A stretch of 64,000 bases of DNA from Epinephelus fuscoguttatus (lineage: Eukaryota; Chordata; Actinopteri; Perciformes; Serranidae), in contig NC_064758.1 of the NCBI RefSeq assembly GCF_011397635.1, positions 14,466,013 to 14,530,012 of the forward strand, read 5' to 3'. Position 1 is the first letter of the stretch; the number at the start of each line of letters is the position of its first letter. A program made the position numbers and the translations under genes. Shown here piece after piece: positions 15,426-49,364 of the stretch. A model generated the notes under the pieces. It was not told the DNA's origin, ran no database searches, and worked only from the letters and a program-made list of their open reading frames with translations.

Positions 15426-15573
15426 TCAGAACTCTTCGTCCTCTGAGCTGAGGTAGTTCTGCTTCTTCCTCACGTTCCAGTGTAAACACTGGGCCAGGCT
15501 CTCGAACCAGTCGTTGACCGGGTCCCGGAAACAAATGGAAGGAACGGGGAAGCAAGAAGTAGTGATGGTAATA
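15426..15573 (-). CDS. nadk: nadk terminal coding exon
   Basis: It encodes [20 protein letters not shown], then [18 protein letters not shown], ending in an acidic tail SSEDEEF and a TGA stop at 15426-15428. Human NADK also ends in an acidic run after WNVRKKQ. Confidence 0.95.
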
Positions 15574-18500
15574 CTGGGGGAAAAAAAAGAAGAAAAGGTT
15601 TTTTGTCACAAAAGTTGCACTCTGAATGAGGAAAGAACAGTCCAGGTACTTGCAATCATAAAAATAAAAGAGGACGTGTTGACATCAGATCTAGCAACAC
15701 GACTTCCTCCTGAAGCAACAATGGCCATTTGTTTAAGTTTGTTTCAATTACTCAAAATGACTGGCAGCTCATTTCAAGAACCAGGAAGGTGATTATCTCT
15801 AGAGTTGCATAAAGGAAGAAGCTGGCCTCTGTATGCGGGACACTCCTGGCCTCAAGCCCATTAAGCAGGCTGATAAGGTTACGTGACAAAGCCTGTAAGT
15901 GTTGAGGCAGCTGCTGGGAGAGTTAAACTTATTATCCATTACAGAGTCTCTGTGCTTTGTTTTGCTCCATTCACTCAGCGTCACCCTGACTGTTTCTGTG
16001 AGTTGGGTGTTTGTGTGGCTGTGGTGTGATGATTAGCCCGGTATGTGGACTAACCTGTCTCCGTGGCAGATCTCTTGTCTCTTTCTTCCATCGAATGATA
16101 CCCAGGCGGTGTTTCTGGCGTCACGTGACAGCATGATCTAGAAAACAAGAAGCAAAGAAGAAGATTGGGATTTTTTTCAGTTGAGAGAAAACATGTTTTT
16201 GCCCTCCATGCTGAAATGACACATACTCAATCATTTTATATCATCTGGGGTTTCAGCCTGTAAAACCTGCATCTCACGAAAATACTAATTCAAACTACAG
16301 TCAGATTGCAAATAATTAAAATCTGATATGTAGGACTGACTCAAACAGTTTAAATACCTTGAGCTCCACCCCGGCAGGCACCACGATGGGCCTGAAGGAG
16401 AGTGAGTGTGGGCAGATGGGGGTGATCATGATGGCCGGGACATTGGGATGGATCATGGAGGCTCCTGCTGCCACTGCATACGCTGTACTTCCTGTAGGTG
16501 TAGATACTATCACACCTGAGGGGACACAGAGGTGCAGGCACACAGAGAATTAAAGCACAACTATATTACGTCTATGTTGCAAACACTGAACCTCAACAGG
16601 TGACACTTGACCATATTTGAAGGAGGGATTGGAGCTGTGGAGGAGTGAGCGGTGAATCTGACTTACAGACTGTGGCAATGCCTTGAAGAGGGCATTTTAA
16701 CACGGGGATCTATATGCATGGGGATTGAGTCACTTCTGGAGAAAGACAGGATGGCGATCGGCTATTTGAGGAAGTGAAGTTTTTGGCACCTCTATGTTGG
16801 CTTTTTTTTTTTAGCCCCGGAAATTGCTGCTTGAGTGCAACACATCTTTTCCGCATAGAGTTGATCATGTTGTTGATTGTGGCCTGTGAAATGCTGGCTC
16901 AATTCTCTTCAATGGCTGTGAAAAGATGCTGGATATTGGCAGGAACTGGAACACGCTGTCATAAATACCAATCCAGAGCATCCCAAACATGTTCAGTGGC
17001 TGACATGTTTGGTGAGCACACAGGCCATGGAAAAACTGGGATGTTTTCAGCTTCCGGGAATTGTGTACAGATTCTCAACATGGGGTTGTACATTATCATG
17101 CTGCAACATGAGGTCATGGCGGCAGATAAACGGCTGACAATGTGCCTCAGGATCTCAACAGTATCTTTGCACCTGTGTTTGTTGTCTTATGCCAGCCCAT
17201 ACCATAATCCCACCACCATGGGACACTCTGTTCACAAAGTTGGCATTAGCAGACTGCCTGCCCACATGACAGCATACATGCTGTCTGCCATTTGCCAGTA
17301 CAGTGTAAACCATGATTCATACCTACTACTGCCACTGCAGTTGAGCAGGTGCCCACTCAAGTCATTTACGACGAACTGCAGTCAGGTCAAGACCCTGGTG
17401 AGGACACTGGATGTGGAGGTCCTAGGCTTGGGTGGTTACACATGGTCTGTGGTTGTAAGGTTGGTTGGATGTACTGCCAAATTCACTGAAACGACTTTGG
17501 AGATGGCTAATGGTTGTGAAATGAGCATTTCATTCATGGGCAACAGCTCTGCTGGACATTATTGCGGTCAGCATGCCAATGGCACGCTCCCTTAAAACTT
17601 GCAACATCTGTGTCATTGTGTCGTGCGATTAAACTGCATGCTTTAGAGTCACCTTTAAGTGTGACCAGCCCAAGGCACACCTGTGTGGTCATGATAATGC
17701 TGTTTAATCAGCATAATGATATGCCACACCTGTCAGGTGAATGGATTGTCTTGGCAAAAGAGAAGTGCTCACTAACACAGATTTAAACACACTGGTGAAC
17801 AAAAATGTGAGAGCGATAAGCCTTCTGTGTCTGTAGAAAAAGTCTAAATCTTTTATTTCAATTCATGAAAAATGGGACCAAAAACAAAAGTGTTACTTTT
17901 ATATTTGTGTTCAGTGTAATAACCAGGCTGCATGACGTCATGCAACCTGGAGTTTCTCTGTGTGAGCGAAAGAAACTCAGGGACATGACACGATATGGAT
18001 GATTCATATTCAGAAGCTACGAGTGACTATTTTTTACCAATGGGAATCAACACAGTGGCCATGTCTACAAACTGCTATATGAAATACTCTGCTTGCTGGG
18101 AGGTGAAGGTCAGCCAGAGGTGCAGAGACTAAACATTGCCTTATCTGCAGACCATCTTGTTTGGGCTGTCAGACAGGTTTTAGTCAGACAATATTAAATA
18201 CTGCTAAGTTATGTGAATGTTTGGCAGCTTTACCCCCGTACGACACTGATCTGATTAATGTGTCAGCACTCTCTGACTCCTATTAAATGTTGGTGCCACA
18301 GTGCAAACCAGACTGACCGCATCTCAGTATTTACATTGCCCCAGCCTGCTGAACATCAAGACAGATCATCTGCCCACTCACCGTCTCCCTGCACGGTGGT
18401 AATGAGGTGTCCGTCCAGGAAGAGGTCGACATTGGAGAGATAGGAGGAGGGGCCTCTGTCCACCACCACCTCGTTCAGTACCTGAAACACACAGTTAACA

Positions 18501-20456
18501 AGTTTTTCCATCAACTCATATGATCTGTGCACAAGGTCACCAACTCCTGGTCTGCACACCCACCTCATTACGGGATTTAGATCATTAACCTCATACCTGC
18601 AGTCAGAGCTGCATTTCTTGTTTTGGAGCTGATGTCAGTGTTTACTTATGTGGTTTTGTAAAAAGCTTGTGGCTCAAATCCCTCAGGCATCAGAGTAAGT
18701 CATTATGTCGACATCACATGGCTGAGCTGTTTTGGCATGTTTACAGCGTGGACTCCGGCTATAGTAAAATTGCATCCTGCGGCGACAGTCCCCATTGGAG
18801 GCTTCCATTGTAACAGTGAAAGAAGTATGTCACTGCAAGAAAGATTCTTTTGAAAGTGGCGCAATTTGACCAGCGAAAACAGAGGGAGGAAAGGGCTGTG
18901 GCATTTGTTTTTCTTGCTTTTGCTTTTCCACAGGAAACAATATGGCGGCTAGCTGGTAAACAATCTTGAGTTACAGTTAAACAGTAAACTAAAATATGAC
19001 CCCAAAAACATTTGAGGCGAGAAACAGGCACCACAGTAACAGAATCTTGGTTTATATTTGATCAACACTGCCTAGTTTTACAGTTTGATCAGAGATTGAG
19101 ACAAAGACAGAGACGGGTGGGTCCGTCTCTTGATCCGCTTCTACATTCACTGTGTCTGTGGTGGCGGGCACACGAAAATGCAAAAATACAATCTGTAGTG
19201 TAAGCGACAGCCCAAGAGCCAGCGAGAATCTGCTGGCTGAAACAAATAGGGGATTTGAGCAGGGATTTCTGGGTGCTGTAAGATGAAGGGAAGTTTACCA
19301 AAGTTCATTTACACATAGTGCCTACACACTTTAATGTCCTTCAAAGACAGAAGTCGGTGGCACACAATGAAAAGTGTCATTTGACTTGTTTTACCAGAAC
19401 GTGCACAGAACTTGAGGAAGAGCCTGGCTCAACACAGCAAGCTGACAACCACCTTAGTGGTACCCGTTATTGCTGACTGGGGATTTAAGGTGTGTTAAGG
19501 CAGCTAAGGAAAGCCTGCCTCTGTTGAACCTGCTTCATGGTACTCCCCTCAGGACTCGTGGACAGCCATGTGAAGTGATGAACAGAACCTGTTTTTTTAC
19601 ATCTTGGCAAGGACTGTGAGAAAATAATGCTGGCAAAAGCTCAAATGCGTTTAATGTGTTCCACAGAACTGATTTAAGCTGCAGGTAATACCTGATACTG
19701 CACGGCTTTCCGGCTGCTTTCGATGTCTCCATTAGTCAGGATGATGCCCTTTTCATCCACTCTGGCTTTCTTCTCCCAGTTGTCTTTGAGCACCCGGACC
19801 TTTAAGCGGCTTCTCAAGACGATGGCAGCATTACCTATAAACAATACATACAGTATATCACATGCTTTGCAAACAGAACAGGAGTGTATATATATATGAT
19901 ATGAAAAGACAGAGGCTGATAGACAGGTTAGAGAACATACAGTACCTTCAATGATTTGGGTGACCTGAGACTGGTAGGTCTCAAATTTGAAGGGTGTCAA
20001 GAAACCCAGGGAGCCCAGGTGGAAGGCCATAACTGGTGGAACGCTCTCCTACAAATATTCAAAGGAAGGAGAGGACTGTAGTGTCATACCAAGTAATGTA
20101 AAAACACACAAAGGCTTCTTTCAAAGTGACAGTAGGAACACTTGGCTGAATACCTGGAAGAGCGAAGATGCATACAGCAAAGTTCCATCACCACCAAGAC
20201 AGATGATGAAGTCTATGCGATTAGAGATGTCATCGAGATCTGAGAAAGACATGACAATGAACCTTTTAAATATCTTATTTAAGATGATGATTTTGTATAT
20301 ATATGCCTAGTGTGCATTCAAACATAGCAAAAAATTGTTTTTCTTACCATCTCTGAAAGTGCAGAATTTCTTAGTTATGGCCCCAAAGTTTTCATCGTCT
20401 GAAATGGCTGGGTCCTCCAGAACTTTCTTTTCCACGTAAACAATCATGTCTTTCAC

Positions 20457-20495
<39 letters not shown>

Positions 20496-23400
20496 GATCA
20501 AAATCAAGGAAGAGAAATGGCGAAATGGCATCACGCACACTGGTTTCACAATGATCCCTCACCAGCTTCCCACCCACAAAAACTGCCAATTACTGACAAT
20601 CCCTGCTAATTATGTTCATTGTTAAAGGCCGCCGGTCATACCTCGGTGAGGAATACGCAGAGCTCTTTGAAAGGCTGAAGCAGACTGGCATCTCGTATCT
20701 TCTTGATGACAAGGACACTTTTTGGCGGCGTGTTCCACGTTAGTCTCTGGCTGGCGGGGTCCTGAATGTGCCTAAAAACACACATACAACGTTTACCTCA
20801 GCGGGCTAAAACAAACTGAACAGTCTCTAGGATAAGGATTCCCCCTTTACATTACATCAGCATCAAGCAGAGCGTCCAGATCTTGGCTGATGTAACATCT
20901 GTTAACTAACCTACTGCTCATCACACCCTGGACTGCTTAGTACCTATCCAATTAGAGTCACAAGTTTAAGGTCTGACCTGTAGCCACATACTGCTGAACC
21001 CCACGCGTCGTCTGCAGGGCCTTCAACTCATCTTAACCCCGCAGAGATGTCTAAACTTTGAAAAGGGCAAGATAAAAATGCGGGAGTGGTGTTTTGAGAG
21101 GAAAAAAAGAGAGGCAAAAATTTCTCTAAAACTCAGCTTTTAAAACCAAAACGCATTCTAAGATAGCAGCCGAAGAGCCACGAGTTGTGAGGATGAACCC
21201 AGTGGAAAAGCACATGAAAAGGACATAAAACGACTACACAAAAGGTATGAAAATTGGAGCTCCCTGGGGCTGAAACAAAATGAAAACCACAAGGAAAATG
21301 AGCTAATGTCATAGCTGGAAATAGCCACAAGATGTAGGATTATTTCACAATGCCAAAAGCTCTCTCTGTCACACATATATATGGCAGTTACTGAGTCAAA
21401 TTGATAGTTCTTAGGGGCAGGGTTACACAGACATAGGCCACCCACCCAAAGACTCTTGTGCTGTGTTTCATAACCATCATCTCTGCTTTAAATGGCTTGT
21501 AAATTAACATCGGTATTACACACTGACATTTACACCAATCACATGTGGAGAGCTGAGGTTTCAAGCCTGGTTGCACCAATCAGTGGACATCACTGAGACG
21601 AAATGGTCGAATGAGGAGATGATGCCTTCAGGAGTTAAATACTTATCGGAAAACTGACATAAAATTAAAACTTTCACGCAACACTTCTGCACAGCTTGAC
21701 AACCAGCATCATCCGTCAATGCTGCATTCACATCATGCCGGTTTTACTGTGAACACCAGCTGATAGCCTCCCATGACGGTGATATTATCAAACAAGTTTT
21801 TCTTTGTTGGGCTCTGATATCTCCCCTCGGCCCATCAGATTTCAGATTTCGGCTGCACATTCAGCCTATCTACGACTGCAAATATTAAAAATGATCAGTA
21901 TTCCGATCAAAGCTGCAGGGTTTCTTCCTACATGAGGACGCTGCCCGGAGAACATATCAGTGTTTGGAGTGAAAACCTGCAGACTCCTGCAAACCCTCTA
22001 TGACACCAAACTAGGGCTGAACGACATGCAAAACAACCTGAAAAACTTGAAACTTGTAAATCTGAAATATGATTTGTAGGACAAGACAACTCTGTACCAC
22101 CACAATGCTTCATGTGTAAACGTATGTTGTGACTCATTTTACCTTTATAAAAAAGCAGCCCCACACCAAACAGCTTGAGACCAGCAGATACACACCACAC
22201 ACGCACACAAAACTCATCAGTCCCAACGTATAACATAACAAAGCAGAATTATTATAACATATCCTGTTCCTGTTTTTCGTTCAGTCAAAAAGTACCGTCA
22301 AACAACGAATAAACAGAAAAACGCTACAAACTAAAGCTTTAAAATAGCCACAGATAATCCACAAGACAGTCATTGTTAGCATCAGATTGTCTTGTACTGC
22401 ACAGGTTATTGTGGCATCTACAATGTTAAAACAGGTGCCACATCTAAATATGACAAAAACGCTTCTTAAATTAGGCAAAACTGATTAAACTGACCATGGG
22501 CAGGTACAAAGCGAAAGCCCGGTTTCACAAACAAATACAGGATACAAAGCAAAACGTCATTAACATCTGAATCGGCGTACGGCTGTGATCTATTCATGGA
22601 CTGTTTCTCCTCTGACCACCTCAAAGCATCTGCGTCCTGACCTTCCCCTTTCATTCAGGAAAACCCCCTGCTCTGTCCACACCACAATGCCATGCTCTTA
22701 CAACAGCCAGTCTGTGATAACACGCAAACACTGCCACTTCTTCAGTGTTACAGCTACCGCTTGACATGGTATGACTAAACTTTAAACCCACATCAGTCTT
22801 CAAAGGCTATCAGCCCAACCCTGCACACTCAGGACGAATACACAATTTTGCTTTTTTCATTCAAGCCAAGCTGAAGTTAGAATAATTTAAGCATGACATC
22901 AGTTTGATATTACTCTCTCTGATCAGCTGGCTCCATGCACTGCCTGTTGGCGCCAATATTTCACCTATCAAACATCTCTCTGTTAAAGAAGAGACGGGAA
23001 GATGCTCTCACCATTTCCACACTTTGTTCTCGTTGTTTTTTCCAGGGCTGTCCTGCAATACGAGCTGGTTGAACTTCATGGCTGTACTCATGTAATGAGG
23101 ATGCTGCTTCAGGCTGACTCAGCAGGAGAACGGGGCTCCGGCAGCACGGCTCATTCTACCTCTAACAACTTCCTTGATTGCCACACATTGTGAAGCAGCT
23201 GGAGCAACTGAGTCAGTTCACTTCTCGCGGTCAAGCTGTGAGTCAGCCACACGGGCCTGTCTGAGAGGCTGAGCGAGGCGGAGAGTCTCTTCAGGAACTG
23301 TGGTCGAGCTCCAGGATCAGCTAACCGCCCCCCTGGGCTGGATCCACTGAGGCTATATTTGTCCCAATGAGGACTTAGCGCTTAACCGTCCTGGAGCATT

Positions 23401-26400: not shown

Positions 26401-29400
26401 GGAAAAATTACCATAAACTTAGATAAAGTTATCATATACTACAGTACATCTCACTGTAGAGGTACGTTGTATCTTTCTAGATGATACTGTCAGGTCTATA
26501 TTTCATGCTCGTTTCTAGCGCTTTGTATCTTTAGTAAAACATGAACACTGGGGCCAATATGATACCTGAGTTTTGGCCTAAATACACTATTTGATACCCT
26601 TCTTTGAGACATATTTTTCTCTAAAACCCCCCCCAGAAAACTTCACAAAAGAAGCCACTGAAAAGTGAAAGAGACACATTTCAGTTGGTATGCGACTCTA
26701 CTGGTTTCAGGGTTTGTTTAACTGTCATTCTGGTCTTCAGTAAGTAAGTCAAACACATGCTCAGTTAGAATGAGGTCAAGTAGACTCGTCAAGACTAAAC
26801 CAGGCAAGTTGAGAATATTTACGCTTGAAGAAAAATTCCTGCGTCGCCTTGTTTGAAAGTTTAGGATTATTGTCCCACCACACTGCTAACCTCATGGTCA
26901 CTACGAGATAAAACAGCAGATAAAATCCAAAGTGCTGAGTGCAGAGACAAAATCGTGCTTGATCCTTAATACTTTTTGTTTTCACATCACTTTATCTGGT
27001 ATGGTATTGAATGTAGACATTTGACAGATGCATGTGTGTACGGAGACATGATTGTGTAACGTGTGAGCACGCTTCGACAAGTCCTCGATATTATGATGGG
27101 TCTTCTGACATATGCATAATTACAACCTGCCAAACACTATTAATCAAATCCACAGAACCTTACGTTTGGAAAGATGCCAACTCCTTGATGCTGCATGTAA
27201 ATAATAAGTATGTTTGTGGTGTTGTCATACAGTTGGCAATACTTTTCTTTTTAACCAACTTTGAAGTTACATCAGAGGATATTATGAAATTTGAGAAGGT
27301 TGGGTTCAGTTTCTCAGAAACAACCAGCTTAGGAGAAGTAAAGCATAAAGATCAGTGAGCTACAGTTACTCTACATAGAAACAAGTGAGAGTGGTGTCAC
27401 TTTGTACCATGACGCTCAGCAGCACGGTCTGTCCGTACAAGAAGAAGAAGTACCTATTTTTGTTGACTTTTAAGACAAAAGTAAACATACGTCAGCCAAA
27501 GTATAAAACCACTGACAGATGAAGTCAGTAACATTGATCATTTTGTTACAATGCAATGTTCTGCTGGGAAACCTTTGGTTCTGGCCTTTATCACCATCCA
27601 CCCAAACACCATTGCAGACCGCGTACACCCTCTCATTGCAAGGGGTGTTGATCCGTATCAGTATCTGGGTGGGTTGAGCGCATTAAGTGGCATTCACATA
27701 AATGCCAGGGCCCAGATTTCCCAGCAGAACGCTGCATCGTGACCAAATGACCAATGTTACTCACTTCACCTGTAACTGGTTTCCATGTTTCGGCTGATCA
27801 GTGTTAAGTGCATGCTCGATGGCATATTGTCATGTCCTGTATATTTTGGATATCTGCCCGATTTAATGATCAGACCAGTCTTTGCTAAGCTACAAGCTAA
27901 AGTGGTTAGCTGGTGTCTAAGGTGTTGTGCTCTATAATGGCTGCCACTGTTAATGTTAAACTCGAAACCGCTCAAGTTGAAACTGAATTTTCTTTGTTGG
28001 TGAAGTAAAACTTTAATAAGGAGAAGACATTCTGTTTATTTTTAGCATGCAGAGAAACTGCACCAGAGCACTGATGAGGAACGGGTCGCCTGATACTTGT
28101 TTTTAAACACTTAAGATGTGGCGTTACTTTGCATCCCATTGACTATCAATAGGGAGGAAGCTTGTGTGACTAGATCGGCATACAGCTGCACTGGCCTCGC
28201 CTTGTGTTGTTGTATGTTAAATTCCTTGTCTCTTTAACATTTTATCAAATTTCAACATGTTAACCAAAGTTTTAACCAGATGAGTAAGCACAACCTGACA
28301 CAACATCAGAGTCCTGCCCAACAGGATCTAAAAGCAACAGCAAATGGCTGTCATGGTCTCTGGTGCTGCACAGATTAAACTGTCACTGCTATGTTAAGTT
28401 GTACATTCACTTGTGCCTGGGCAAAAAAACACGAGTATAAAAACTGATGCAGAACCCATTTCCTCAGCCCCACTTACATTACTGTGTGTGGATTCTGGAG
28501 CATGCATGCCTTCGGGCCGAATGTGGTCACAGGGCTTGGTCCATGAAGCGACTGAGTCCTCCTGAAAGAGACAATGACAAAGGCAAACATTTAGGGCTTA
28601 AAATAGGGAAGCTGCCGAGCAAGTATGCAAACAATCATCTATGCTATTTGTTAAAGGAAAACAAAATGGCTTTAAAGTGGTCGCTATTTTTAAACTGTAA
28701 AGAAAAAAAAAAAAAGAAGTTTCATTAAGTTTCAGTCGCGAGATAAGTGTTGTGTTCCCATCATTTACAGGACGCTACAAGCTGAGCTGCAGTGCGCTCG
28801 ATGTTGCTGAAAATTCCTACATTTCTAAACGCATCTTGATGTAAAATTTCTAATCAAATATTCCACTTTCATTTCTCTGTTTTAAGAAAAAAAGAGAAGC
28901 GAAGTCATTGACCAAGACATTTAGAAAAAGCCTACGGATTTCCACAATTTAATTCATCATCAGCAGATATGAGATTATTTTGTACATTGTGTGTACATAT
29001 TTGTGGTCACCCAGTGACCACAACTGGTCTGTCTAATGTAGATAACGTGCCACATGATCTCTGTGACCTTTGGTGGTGAATAACAGGTCATTTGCTCATA
29101 CTGTCTCAAGAAGACTTTTCTTGGCAATGGTAATAATGCATTGTGAAAGGTTTGAAAAGCAAACACTTGTATCTATCCTACCTGCAGTGCAAGCACCATA
29201 TCTGTTAATGATGAAATAAAGCCCAACAGTTTTAACAACATTACCATTTAACACATCAGATGCCTTTGTTTGCTCTGGAACTCAGTGGAAAAACCCTGCA
29301 CACCTTGTCTGTCTTTCGAGACCTTGTTAAAACAATACGACTGTGCTGCGGGTGAAAGGTCGCTGACACTGAGCTGTGACGGAGCACTACGAGATCGCCG

Positions 29401-31098
29401 CCTCCAACTACAGAAGCCTTCACGCTGCATCACAACCCTCGGCCAACAAATCCTCTTAGCAGTCTGATTCTGTGAATTCGCCATCTGCTGTTTTCTGGCT
29501 CTCAAAGCTGCATTCATCAACATTTTCACATGAACACTGAATGAAACGAATAATGTGACGTGTGCTGCTTGTAGTGACAGACACACAGAGAAGCATGACT
29601 TCAGCATCTCTGCAGAAATTTTAGCCTCTTTTAGCTCTTTGTTTTGGAGTTAGGAGCCTAGAAACATGAGTCCAATGGAATGAACCATGACCATCAGGTA
29701 TGACAGGAGGCAACTGTTTACTTTAACATCTTCATAAAGCGAGACAATTCAGCGCTGTGCATCTGTCAGTTTGTTCGGGAGTTCTTCTGCCTGTTAGTGG
29801 ACAAAATGATTTCATTTAGCTGTTTATGTCTCTTTTTTGGGGATGATGTTAAAATAAATCTGAGAGCAGAGAGAGCCTGTGATCAGCTTGTCTTAACCTC
29901 TGACTTTATTCCAGGCTTTTAATCAAACTTAGATTCAGATCCAAACCACATTTTAGCCACTTCCCTCATAGTTAGTTTATATAAATCACTGTCTTATTAT
30001 CACTGAGTAACTGTGACTAATTCATCACCTTTCTAATCCAATTTCTAAGCAGTTGTTTGTTTACCTAAATCCATCACAACGACTTTCTGTCAAATGGCAT
30101 AAAAATAAGAAGTGTCATTGCCTTATTTGGATAAACTCAATAAAACTTTCTGTGGGGGTGTATTTCAACATATTGGACTAGTGTAATCTTTTAGTGGTAT
30201 TTCTCTTCCTCATTTCCACATCACTAATGGGTCAATACTGATATACACTTAAAGGACATGTTAAGACAGACTGGTGCCTTTTCACTTCTTCTTGTGAGGA
30301 ACCTCATCATTGTTGCCAAAGCACACAAACAAACAAAGCCCTTGCAACATCCGCGGTGAGCAAACGTTTCAGACCTTTGTTTTCTTGAAGTCATTAGTGC
30401 GATGGCTGAAGGGACACATGTCCGAGGTGGTGCAACACGGATCGTGTCACAAGGGTATTTCAAAAATGTTTCTCACGCAGCTCAGGGCAACAGCATCTGT
30501 TCTGAAATATCACCTCGCAGTAAGCATGATAGGTAACTGTCTCGTGGCAATGTGCTTCATGGACTTAAAATATATATGAATCAGGAAAAGGCACACCTAG
30601 GAATGTTCTTTTGCCAAGTTTGCTACACTTACGTAACACATGTGAAACTGGCATGCCGAGCTAGATAAGATCATAAACAACAGTACTGAAATGAAAACAC
30701 ATCAAAACTAACTTTAGTTCTCAGAGTCAGTGACAGACAGGGCTAAAGGCTGATTCCACATTTACCAGTAAGACCACAACCACTAAGCTCCTACTCTCTT
30801 CACTGGCAACATAACAAGATGGTTTCCTGCATGGTGTCAGAAAGAATGTGAACATCCTTGTGACTTATGACTCCAAACATAATAACAGGCTTGTCAGCAC
30901 CATAACAAATTATGTTCCATGTGTGAGGCCCCTGTTCAACACCCACCTGTACTCAGAGGAGCTGCCGGCTGAGGAGGTGCTCAGGCTGCGTGCCTTCCTG
31001 TTGCGTCGAACCAGGTTGCGGCCGGGGACCTCCCCTCCATCACAGGTGGAGCAGCAGTATGGGACAGACTCCACTCGCATATCCTCTCCACTGTCCAT
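15426..31098 (-). CDS. nadk: NAD kinase (NADK), full-length canonical isoform
   Basis: Cytosolic NAD kinase phosphorylates NAD+ to NADP+ using ATP and so supplies the NADPH pool. Coding exons, 5' to 3' on the minus strand, are 30947-31098, 28478-28561, 20642-20771, 20348-20456, 20154-20239, 19946-20048, 19692-19834, 18382-18481, 16358-16515, 16055-16137 and 15426-15573. All junctions are phase-consistent and total 1296 bases (431 residues plus stop), close to the human 446. Family hallmarks are seen: GGDGT (about residues 174-178), [11 protein letters not shown], and [10 protein letters not shown] (about 307-316). The N-terminus keeps the serine motif RSLSTSS (from residue 37) and RRTQSLHG (51-58), equivalent to the Akt- and PKC-phosphorylated stretches in human NADK. 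Start ATG is 31096-31098. An earlier in-frame ATG at 31138-31140 lies upstream of the likely acceptor. Confidence 0.95.
15574..16054 (-). other. nadk: nadk intron 10
   Basis: A plain GT-AG intron. Nothing recognised inside. Confidence 0.7.
16055..16137 (-). CDS. nadk: nadk coding exon 10
   Basis: It encodes [20 protein letters not shown] followed by QEICHGD. WVSFDG is a conserved strand-loop near the active site. The acceptor is TTTTCTAG and the donor GTTAGT. Confidence 0.94.
16358..16515 (-). CDS. nadk: nadk coding exon 9
   Basis: It encodes [20 protein letters not shown], then [20 protein letters not shown], ending [14 protein letters not shown] is the second NAD kinase signature. Its only near-human difference in the visible core is V for A in AYAVAAG. 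The acceptor is CCCCTCAG and the donor GTATTT. Confidence 0.96.
16790..17919 (-). mobile_element. Degenerate Tc1-like (mariner superfamily) transposon in a nadk intron
   Basis: The right-hand end (minus sense: TACACTGAACACAAATATAA) is the known terminal sequence of a fish Tc1-like family. It is followed inwards by the family's untranslated leader, and then by a transposase frame beginning near 17610 ([11 protein letters not shown]). Blocks for VWDALD, HDNV and [21 protein letters not shown] motifs are recognisable further down to about 16840. The transposase has stops, indels and a missing segment near 17330-17345, and the left terminal repeat is missing. It is inactive. Confidence 0.75.
17923..17950. 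promoter_or_regulatory. 28-base near-perfect palindrome with a full CRE core
   Basis: The centre GCATGACGTCATGC is a perfect palindrome containing the cAMP response element octamer TGACGTCA at 17933-17940. With flanking CCAGG/CCTGG arms the symmetry spans 28 bases with one mismatched pair. It is immediately outside the Tc1 end. Function is not shown. Confidence 0.5.
18382..18481 (-). CDS. nadk: nadk coding exon 8
   Basis: It encodes [20 protein letters not shown] and continues to [11 protein letters not shown]. The NEVVVDRG motif contacts the nucleotide in this family. The acceptor is GTGTTTCAG and the donor GTGAGT. Confidence 0.95.
18482..19691 (-). other. nadk: nadk intron 7
   Basis: About 18690-19350 has the look of an interspersed fish repeat: a block of unrelated short frames, with AAACAATATGGCGGCTAGC and TGACCCCAAAAACATTTGAG that I associate with repeats. 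I could not define its ends. No exon was seen. Confidence 0.35.
19692..19834 (-). CDS. nadk: nadk coding exon 7
   Basis: It begins [15 protein letters not shown], passes through a variable lysine/glutamate-rich insert ([13 protein letters not shown]) and ends at KAVQYQ. The insert is the least conserved part of animal NADK. The acceptor is TTATAG and the donor GTATTACC. Confidence 0.93.
19946..20048 (-). CDS. nadk: nadk coding exon 6
   Basis: It encodes [20 protein letters not shown] and then [14 protein letters not shown]. The GSLGFL stretch is conserved across NAD kinases. The acceptor is ATTTGTAG and the donor GTACTG. Confidence 0.94.
20154..20239 (-). CDS. nadk: nadk coding exon 5 (GGDGT catalytic motif)
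   Basis: It encodes [20 protein letters not shown] followed by [14 protein letters not shown] is the nucleotide-binding and catalytic signature of the NAD kinase/diacylglycerol kinase fold. The aspartate activates the 2'-hydroxyl of NAD. The acceptor is TTTCTCAG and the donor GTATTC. Confidence 0.95.
20348..20456 (-). CDS. nadk: nadk coding exon 4
   Basis: It encodes [20 protein letters not shown] and continues to KKFCTFRD. The acceptor is directly preceded, in transcript sense, by a (TG)17 tract (20459-20492). The donor is GTAAGA. The length of 109 bases means skipping would shift the frame. Confidence 0.93.
20459..20492 (+). repeat. (AC)17 microsatellite at a nadk 3' splice site
   Basis: Seventeen uninterrupted AC units. 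In nadk transcript sense this is (GU)17 ending three bases before the acceptor AG of exon 4. Confidence 0.95.
20642..20771 (-). CDS. nadk: nadk coding exon 3
   Basis: The acceptor TTTTTAG precedes GCACATTCAG and the donor is GTATGA. It encodes [20 protein letters not shown] and onward to ELCVFLTE, including the first beta strand of the catalytic fold (SVLVIKK). Phase 2 at the start fits both candidate upstream exons. Confidence 0.93.
20772..23011 (-). other. nadk: nadk intron between exon 3 and the alternative first exon
   Basis: No coding feature or recognisable repeat was found over this 2.2 kb. Confidence 0.5.
23012..23091 (-). CDS. nadk: Predicted alternative first coding exon of nadk
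   Basis: On the minus strand an ATG at 23089-23091 opens an uninterrupted frame of 26 codons plus two bases ([20 protein letters not shown], then ENKVWK and the bases TG). It ends at a good donor, GTGAGAGC. The phase is exactly that needed to join exon 3 (20642-20771), forming a tryptophan codon before HIQDPASQ. The resulting protein would be 379 residues and lack canonical residues 1-79 with their phosphosites. Upstream DNA is GC-richer, with GC boxes and AP-1-like sites. A second in-frame ATG at 23077-23079 is an alternative start. Transcription is inferred, not shown. Confidence 0.6.
23092..23490 (-). promoter_or_regulatory. nadk: Putative alternative nadk promoter
   Basis: The region upstream of the alternative first exon holds three TGASTCA (AP-1) sequences at 23115-23121, 23209-23215 and 23239-23245. 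The first sits in GCTGACTCAGCA, 12 of 13 bases of a Maf recognition element. GC boxes are at 23325-23330 and 23476-23482. No TATA box was identified. The start site is unknown, and the nearest AP-1 site may lie within the transcript. Confidence 0.4.
23491..25634 (-). other. nadk: nadk intron, no feature recognised
   Basis: AT-rich sequence between the alternative promoter and MITE copy B. I see no exon, RNA gene or clear repeat. Confidence 0.5.
25635..26051. mobile_element. AT-rich inverted-repeat element (MITE), copy B
   Basis: The terminal inverted repeats TGTCTCAATATTATTTGTGT (from 25635) and its inverse ending at 26051 match over 21 bases with one mismatch. The interior is AT-rich with sub-terminal inverted similarity (GCAATCTGCAAATA against CACAGATTACATATTT). 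It is the same family as 5281-5992 but lacks the eif3f fragment, so it approximates the empty form. Confidence 0.75.
26052..28477 (-). other. nadk: nadk intron with a small inverted-repeat remnant
   Basis: Contains the short element at 27558-27731. Otherwise AT-rich sequence without an exon or other recognised feature. Confidence 0.5.
27558..27731. mobile_element. Short element with 16-base inverted ends
   Basis: GTTCTGCTGGGAAACC at about 27559 and GATTTCCCAGCAGAAC near 27714 are inverted repeats matching at 15 of 16 positions, about 140 bases apart. The phrase CTGCTGGGAAACCTTTGGTT resembles a repetitive fish sequence I know by pattern. Superfamily unknown. Confidence 0.4.
28478..28561 (-). 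CDS. nadk: nadk coding exon 2
   Basis: The acceptor CTTTCAG abuts 28561 and the donor GTAAGTG follows 28478. It encodes [20 protein letters not shown], then LQNPHTV, and two bases of a methionine codon. The serine of RTQSLHG corresponds to human Ser64. This exon would be skipped by the alternative first exon at 23012-23091. Confidence 0.92.
28562..30946 (-). other. nadk: nadk intron 1 of the coding region
   Basis: No exon or recognisable repeat was seen in these 2.4 kb. Confidence 0.5.

Positions 31099-36739: not shown

Positions 36740-49364
<12,625 letters not shown>

Follow-up and report, generated by a model that had tools for sequence, protein, structure and literature searches.

The cytosolic NADP(H) pool is the product of NAD kinase (NADK). 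In mammals, the control of this enzyme, as far as it is known, is exerted largely via the N-terminus, the region that growth and insulin-type signals normally target. A short isoform of NADK is reportedly the subject of a breast-cancer metastasis paper (Ilter et al. 2023), and Hoxhaj et al. 2019 is reportedly another NADK-related paper. In human NADK, according to PMC11233901, phosphorylation by Akt at residues 44, 46 and 48 lifts autoinhibition, residues 46 and 64 are targets of PKC and residue 64 is one of CaMKII, and deletion of residues 1-87 raises activity. The cryo-EM paper PMC12052686 describes residues 87-91 as pairing across the dimer in structure 3PFN and considers that I90F may tighten the dimer interface; this substitution is activating according to the same paper and to PMC11233901. 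The cryo-EM paper also describes a human isoform 3, which is rare, highly active and without the regulatory domain. Like the fish form presented here, this isoform has lost the phosphorylated N-terminal region and kept the catalytic domain (PMC12052686); it is taken here from its description in that paper.

The window (the whole stretch of DNA that was analysed, 64,000 nucleotides from Epinephelus fuscoguttatus) carries a nadk gene on its minus strand. The exons were located with human NADK as the query and then trimmed to splice sites. A putative alternative first coding exon lies between the second and the third canonical coding exons. The organization of the gene is as follows:

30947..31098, minus strand, canonical coding exon 1, holding RSLSTSS (human Ser44/46/48 segment)
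28478..28561, minus strand, canonical coding exon 2, holding RRTQSLHG (human Ser64 segment)
23119..23121, minus strand, TGA ahead of the alternative ATG and in frame with it, read from the sequence
23012..23091, minus strand, coding part (26 codons plus TG) of the putative nadk alternative first coding exon, from the reading frame and the conserved N-terminus of its relatives
23077..23079, minus strand, Met5 codon, the likelier start, from its GCCATGA context and the motif of the relatives
23006..23011, minus strand, 5' splice donor GTGAGA of the alternative exon, read from the sequence and scored
20642..20771, minus strand, coding exon 3 (HIQDPASQ...), common to both forms, with acceptor TTTTTAG
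15426..20456, minus strand, shared coding exons 4-11 as a block, with the NAD kinase domains by Pfam
20456-20348, 20239-20154, 20048-19946 and 19834-19692, minus strand, shared coding exons 4-7
18481-18382, 16515-16358, 16137-16055 and 15573-15426, minus strand, shared coding exons 8-11

In the canonical product, RSLSTSS begins at residue 37 and QSLHG at residue 54. They align to human Ser44/46/48 and Ser64, positions which were verified on human NADK (P0084), and this alignment bears out the initial annotation, which had equated RSLSTSS and RRTQSLHG with the human segments. WD40 exons with GNB1 as their best match adjoin nadk on the minus strand (41418-44089); we take GNB1 to be the neighbour of this gene in human too. 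Rfam at the gathering threshold gave no matches within the 64-kb window.

On the minus strand, positions 23091-23012 read ATG AGT ACA GCC ATG AAG ... GTG TGG AAA TG, followed by GTGAGA. The 26 whole codons are free of stops, and the isolated ATG frame with a GTGAGA donor that had been proposed for the intron between exons 2 and 3 is thus present as claimed. Exon 3 starts at 20771, where the acceptor TTTTTAG is followed by G CAC ATT CAG, in agreement with the proposed phase 2 ending, which gives TG|G and then HIQDPASQ. Splicing in silico likewise reproduces the predicted product of 379 residues from Met1, with a new N-terminus in place of canonical residues 1-79. At the junction, exon 2 gives the codon ATG (Met) and the alternative exon TGG (Trp), and TG|G corresponds to human residues 88/89 (numbering verified on human NADK). 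The catalytic domain is intact in the alternative product, Pfam NAD_kinase and NAD_kinase_C (PF01513 and PF20143) both scoring above the curated cut-offs. The alternative peptide has a single match in the fish assembly (1.047 Gb, 26 contigs).

The exon observation is true, yet it is not improbable from the sequence alone. The 7706-base intron contains one frame this long or longer with an equal or better donor and the right phase. Shuffled introns (n = 200) contain 0.22 such frames on average, and 20.5% of them have at least one, so that the frame argument is only suggestive. At a looser cut (donor score of at least 6), six frames were counted in the real intron versus 4.7 in the shuffles; the donor scores in this test rest on nominal weights. 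The shuffles thus leave room for a chance open reading frame with a chance donor. Against it, dozens of species have this N-terminus at an identical junction; a chance frame was set aside for this reason and is hardly credible. As the frame alone is not rare, the case for the exon rests on homologous proteins and on the nadkb paralogue.

Three protein searches were carried out with the first 40 residues of the window product, of a Gracilinanus form and of a form from the sawfish Pristis. The window query is made of 27 new residues and 13 that are common with canonical NADK. Candidate retrieval relied on exact matches of 5-residue words and therefore favours proteins retaining WKWHI; the Gracilinanus search also lists canonical proteins and is therefore less exposed to this bias. 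The matches listed are 49 of 49 candidates for the window product, the best 120 of 158 for Gracilinanus and 55 of 57 for Pristis. The 125 distinct listed proteins were sorted by the residues preceding HIQDPA, 19 of them by hand, into 51 with the alternative start, 55 canonical, seven placental alternative, five nadkb-type and seven other proteins. Among these listed matches, Trp precedes His in all 51 alternative starts, in none of the 55 canonical and none of the seven placental proteins, in all five of the nadkb type and in two of the seven others, and WKW is found in 45 of the 51 alternative-start relatives. The two others are the goby P0049 and the goat P0057 (no Met start), in which the Trp follows different-looking starts; both were excluded from the 51, together with five more odd models.

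The 51 listed relatives comprise, among fishes, many teleosts, the bowfin, one sawshark and two rays and, among tetrapods, Xenopus, the axolotl, a turtle, a snake, a bird, the echidna and six marsupials. Most are computed gene models, and 32 carry the name NADK isoform X2 or X3. Such database isoforms of fishes, cartilaginous fishes, amphibians, reptiles and marsupials have the same start motif, the same junction and a similar length as the window product. The kind of form, known as NADK isoform 3 or as X2/X3 in databases, is thus already known. The initial annotation had asked about conservation of the frame in other teleosts, and at the protein level it is kept: the window-query matches P0002-P0019 (17 of these 18 are named teleosts) show 73-89% identity over 90-100% of the 40-residue query. 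The Polymixia and Etheostoma forms are 85% and 88% identical over this query, most other relatives being lower. The claimed absence of the phospho-regulatory region is also right by sequence. Only one of the 51 relatives, the snake model P0046, has RSLS/SLHG upstream, and this model also holds canonical exons, with the motif inserted after the sequence of canonical exon 2 and before that of exon 3. The sole source of P0008 (375 residues) is a contig of 1458 bases, and P0021 comes from ten contigs, each of at most 3344 bases. Since the corresponding coding part extends over 7.7 kb in the present gene, the contigs behind both proteins probably represent spliced RNA, with retrocopies as the alternative.

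Two start codons come into consideration. Met5 (23079, GCCATGA) has a purine at -3, and Met1 (23091, TACATGA) has none. The motif of Met5, M[KR][FILV], is found in 50 of the 51 listed relatives, with a Met four residues earlier in 32. Because of its better context and this conservation, Met5 is more likely to be the start, and the main product would then have 375 residues. The 51 proteins begin at the conserved Met in 14 cases, four residues before it in 32, three before it in one and much further upstream in three; the last are the P0020, P0045 and P0046 models, with 31, 66 and 103 residues ahead of the conserved Met. These extended models are what would be expected if the exon were real but internal, with transcripts from the main promoter skipping exons 1-2 and entering via an acceptor upstream of the ATG, and acceptor-like CAG sites do occur upstream, for example at 23114 and 23261. 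The in-frame TGA at 23121-23119 stands in the way of such an entry, although a transcript entering at the 23114 acceptor would not include it, and 46 of the 51 relatives start at the conserved Met or four residues before, even if the first Met is silent on where the transcript starts. An internal exon is considered unlikely, and the exon is treated below as a first exon.

The depth of the homology was assessed by aligning the exon-coded residues only, with 2000 shuffles and a strict control that fixes M1 and the last three residues. In the plain test of the window exon against Polymixia, Amia, sawfish, Xenopus and Gracilinanus, the score is reached by 0, 0, 2, 1 and 6 of the 2000 shuffles, respectively. 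Under the strict control, the same five pairs give 0, 0, 185, 186 and 629. Beyond the ray-finned fishes, the likeness therefore sits in the peptide ends. Intermediate pairs under this control are reached by 1 (Amia-sawfish), 0 (sawfish-Xenopus), 57 (sawfish-Gracilinanus) and 102 (Xenopus-Gracilinanus) of 2000 shuffles. The proposed homology beyond the ray-finned fishes rests on the position, the M[KR] start, WKW, these intermediates and the identical junction. The exon at 23012-23091 thus very probably belongs to NADK of jawed vertebrates at large, as an alternative first coding exon of old origin.

It could be that pipelines predict this form from a low-level or noncoding transcript, from which little protein is made. 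The rarity of human isoform 3 (PMC12052686), the weak context of Met1 and the altered start in placentals would agree with this. However, the conservation of residues among ray-finned fishes (0 of 2000 for window and Amia under the strict control) implies translation, and the context of Met5 is good. We regard a transcript of this sort as quite improbable, and a translated form remains the preferred reading.

The second copy of the gene in the same fish, nadkb, is located on contig 15 (C15). Intron 2 of this copy, with a length of about 600 bases, also holds a candidate exon:

C15:16921966-16921925, candidate nadkb alternative first coding exon MPVVRHSKEERHKW, in intron 2, with a phase that fits its exon 3

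The DNA of this exon reads ATGCCTGTGGTC...AAATG, then GTAAAA, and its peptide ends in KW. In comparison with the start of eel nadkb isoform X3, MPVLYPSKGEWKNW, the score of MPVVRHSKEERHKW is reached by 0 of 2000 shuffles, strict control included. The nadkb start and the window exon, in contrast, are not significantly alike, as 546 of 2000 shuffles reach their score in the plain test. The teleost nadkb isoforms X2-X4 (eel, Denticeps, Nothobranchius and Halichoeres) have an alternative start joined onto exon 3, with Trp before His. The fifth nadkb-type start belongs to a Synaphobranchus hypothetical protein that was assigned to nadkb in this analysis. The sequence of these nadkb-type starts differs from that of the window exon. 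Both copies therefore appear to keep an alternative start at one gene position, be it through inheritance or through two separate origins.

The seven placental forms have Gly (six) or Arg (one) in front of the His. The absence of Trp in placentals refers to these seven starts, which were judged homologous, and not to every placental model. The primate alternative starts (macaque P0059 and P0060, the latter starting at an inner Met, and gorilla P0062) have neither the M[KR] start nor Trp before His. Along the series of marsupial, cat and macaque, the score is reached by 37 (cat-macaque) and 57 (marsupial-macaque) of 2000 shuffles, versus 1095 for window-macaque. The fish alternative exon is probably related to the start of human isoform 3. 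Because the primate starts are without M[KR] and without Trp before His, the start of the human form is probably orthologous but eroded. Placental decay of this start may explain the rarity of the human version, and a fish, a frog or a marsupial would be a better system in which to study it. In the portions of the literature that were available, no description of first-exon conservation or of a fish form was found, nor were the age, the conserved WKW, the presence in both teleost copies or the placental decay found in print. The accessible parts of PMC6675116, PMC12507031, PMC11273496, PMC11274344, PMC11984695, PMC12178909 and PMC12979809 contain nothing on this form.

The Akt sites and the PKC/CaMKII site are absent from the alternative product, as RSLSTSS and QSLHG are encoded by the skipped exons 1-2. 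Transcription would begin in or just before 23012-23091, and the transcript would join exon 3 to encode a NAD kinase of 375 or 379 residues with an intact catalytic domain. Without Ser44/46/48 and Ser64, this form would escape N-terminal autoinhibition and make NADP+ at a high, Akt-independent rate, its output being set by its own promoter. We infer this escape because deletion of residues 1-87 raises the activity of the human enzyme and because isoform 3 is highly active; the alternative form should be a constitutively active, Akt-blind kinase. With good confidence, 23012-23091 can be read as an alternative first exon which yields a 375/379-residue, putatively Akt-independent NAD kinase without residues 1-79. 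If the start holds from cartilaginous fishes to marsupials, with its own conserved residues, and in both teleost copies, Akt control would have an old, built-in bypass.

The form may also be real but differently controlled, its new N-terminus being itself regulatory or partner-binding. A bare deletion would need no conserved residues, and here Trp precedes His in 51 of 51 listed relatives, with WKW in 45. The fish form diverges exactly at the dimer strand, with Trp in place of Met88 and WKW ahead of His89-Ile90, and both Trp may have a part in this strand. The pairing of human residues 87-91 in 3PFN and the activating effect of I90F (PMC12052686 and PMC11233901) point the same way. The retrieval, however, is biased towards WKWHI, and the AlphaFold pLDDT of the N-terminus is below 50 in both runs. 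The mean pLDDT is 59.6 for the Etheostoma alternative form (P0003) and 46.2 for the Fundulus canonical form (P0072), and this structural test was rejected, the models being too poor to judge the role of the Trp. A regulatory N-terminus is plausible, although its prospects fall short of even. More tentative still, and rather doubtful, is a reading in which the WKW N-terminus is a positive jawed-vertebrate module, locking the tetramer, from its place next to the dimer strand, in an active state for Akt-independent NADP+, as proposed for I90F, under its own, possibly redox-responsive promoter, and decayed in placentals. In that case, the original function would escape studies of human isoform 3.

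The promoter of the favoured first exon would lie in the region directly upstream, which contains one cluster of motifs:

23115..23245, strand not applicable, three TGASTCA sites (23115, 23209 and 23239), from a motif scan

These sites are presumably AP-1/MARE-like, and the one at 23115 also fits TGACNNNGC, an antioxidant-response-element core. All three fall within 131 bases, and the ATG follows them at a distance of 24 to 154 bases. The window has 12 TGASTCA in total and no other 140-base stretch with three; at least three are present in 0.68% of its 409-base stretches. Upstream of the nadkb exon, no TGASTCA is present within 409 bases, and one is found downstream in the same intron. A second group of three is located at 46313-46571, at higher window coordinates than those of the GNB1 exons. 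Redox control via this cluster stays a lead only, because the motif was picked after looking at the region, a second group occurs elsewhere and none is present upstream of the nadkb exon.

Canonical exon 2 of nadkb (18933-19022 of the joined reverse strand) reads RRAHFLHG, versus RRTRSLHG in human, the equivalent of Ser64 being Phe. Judging from this segment, nadk and nadkb may differ in phospho-control even as canonical forms.
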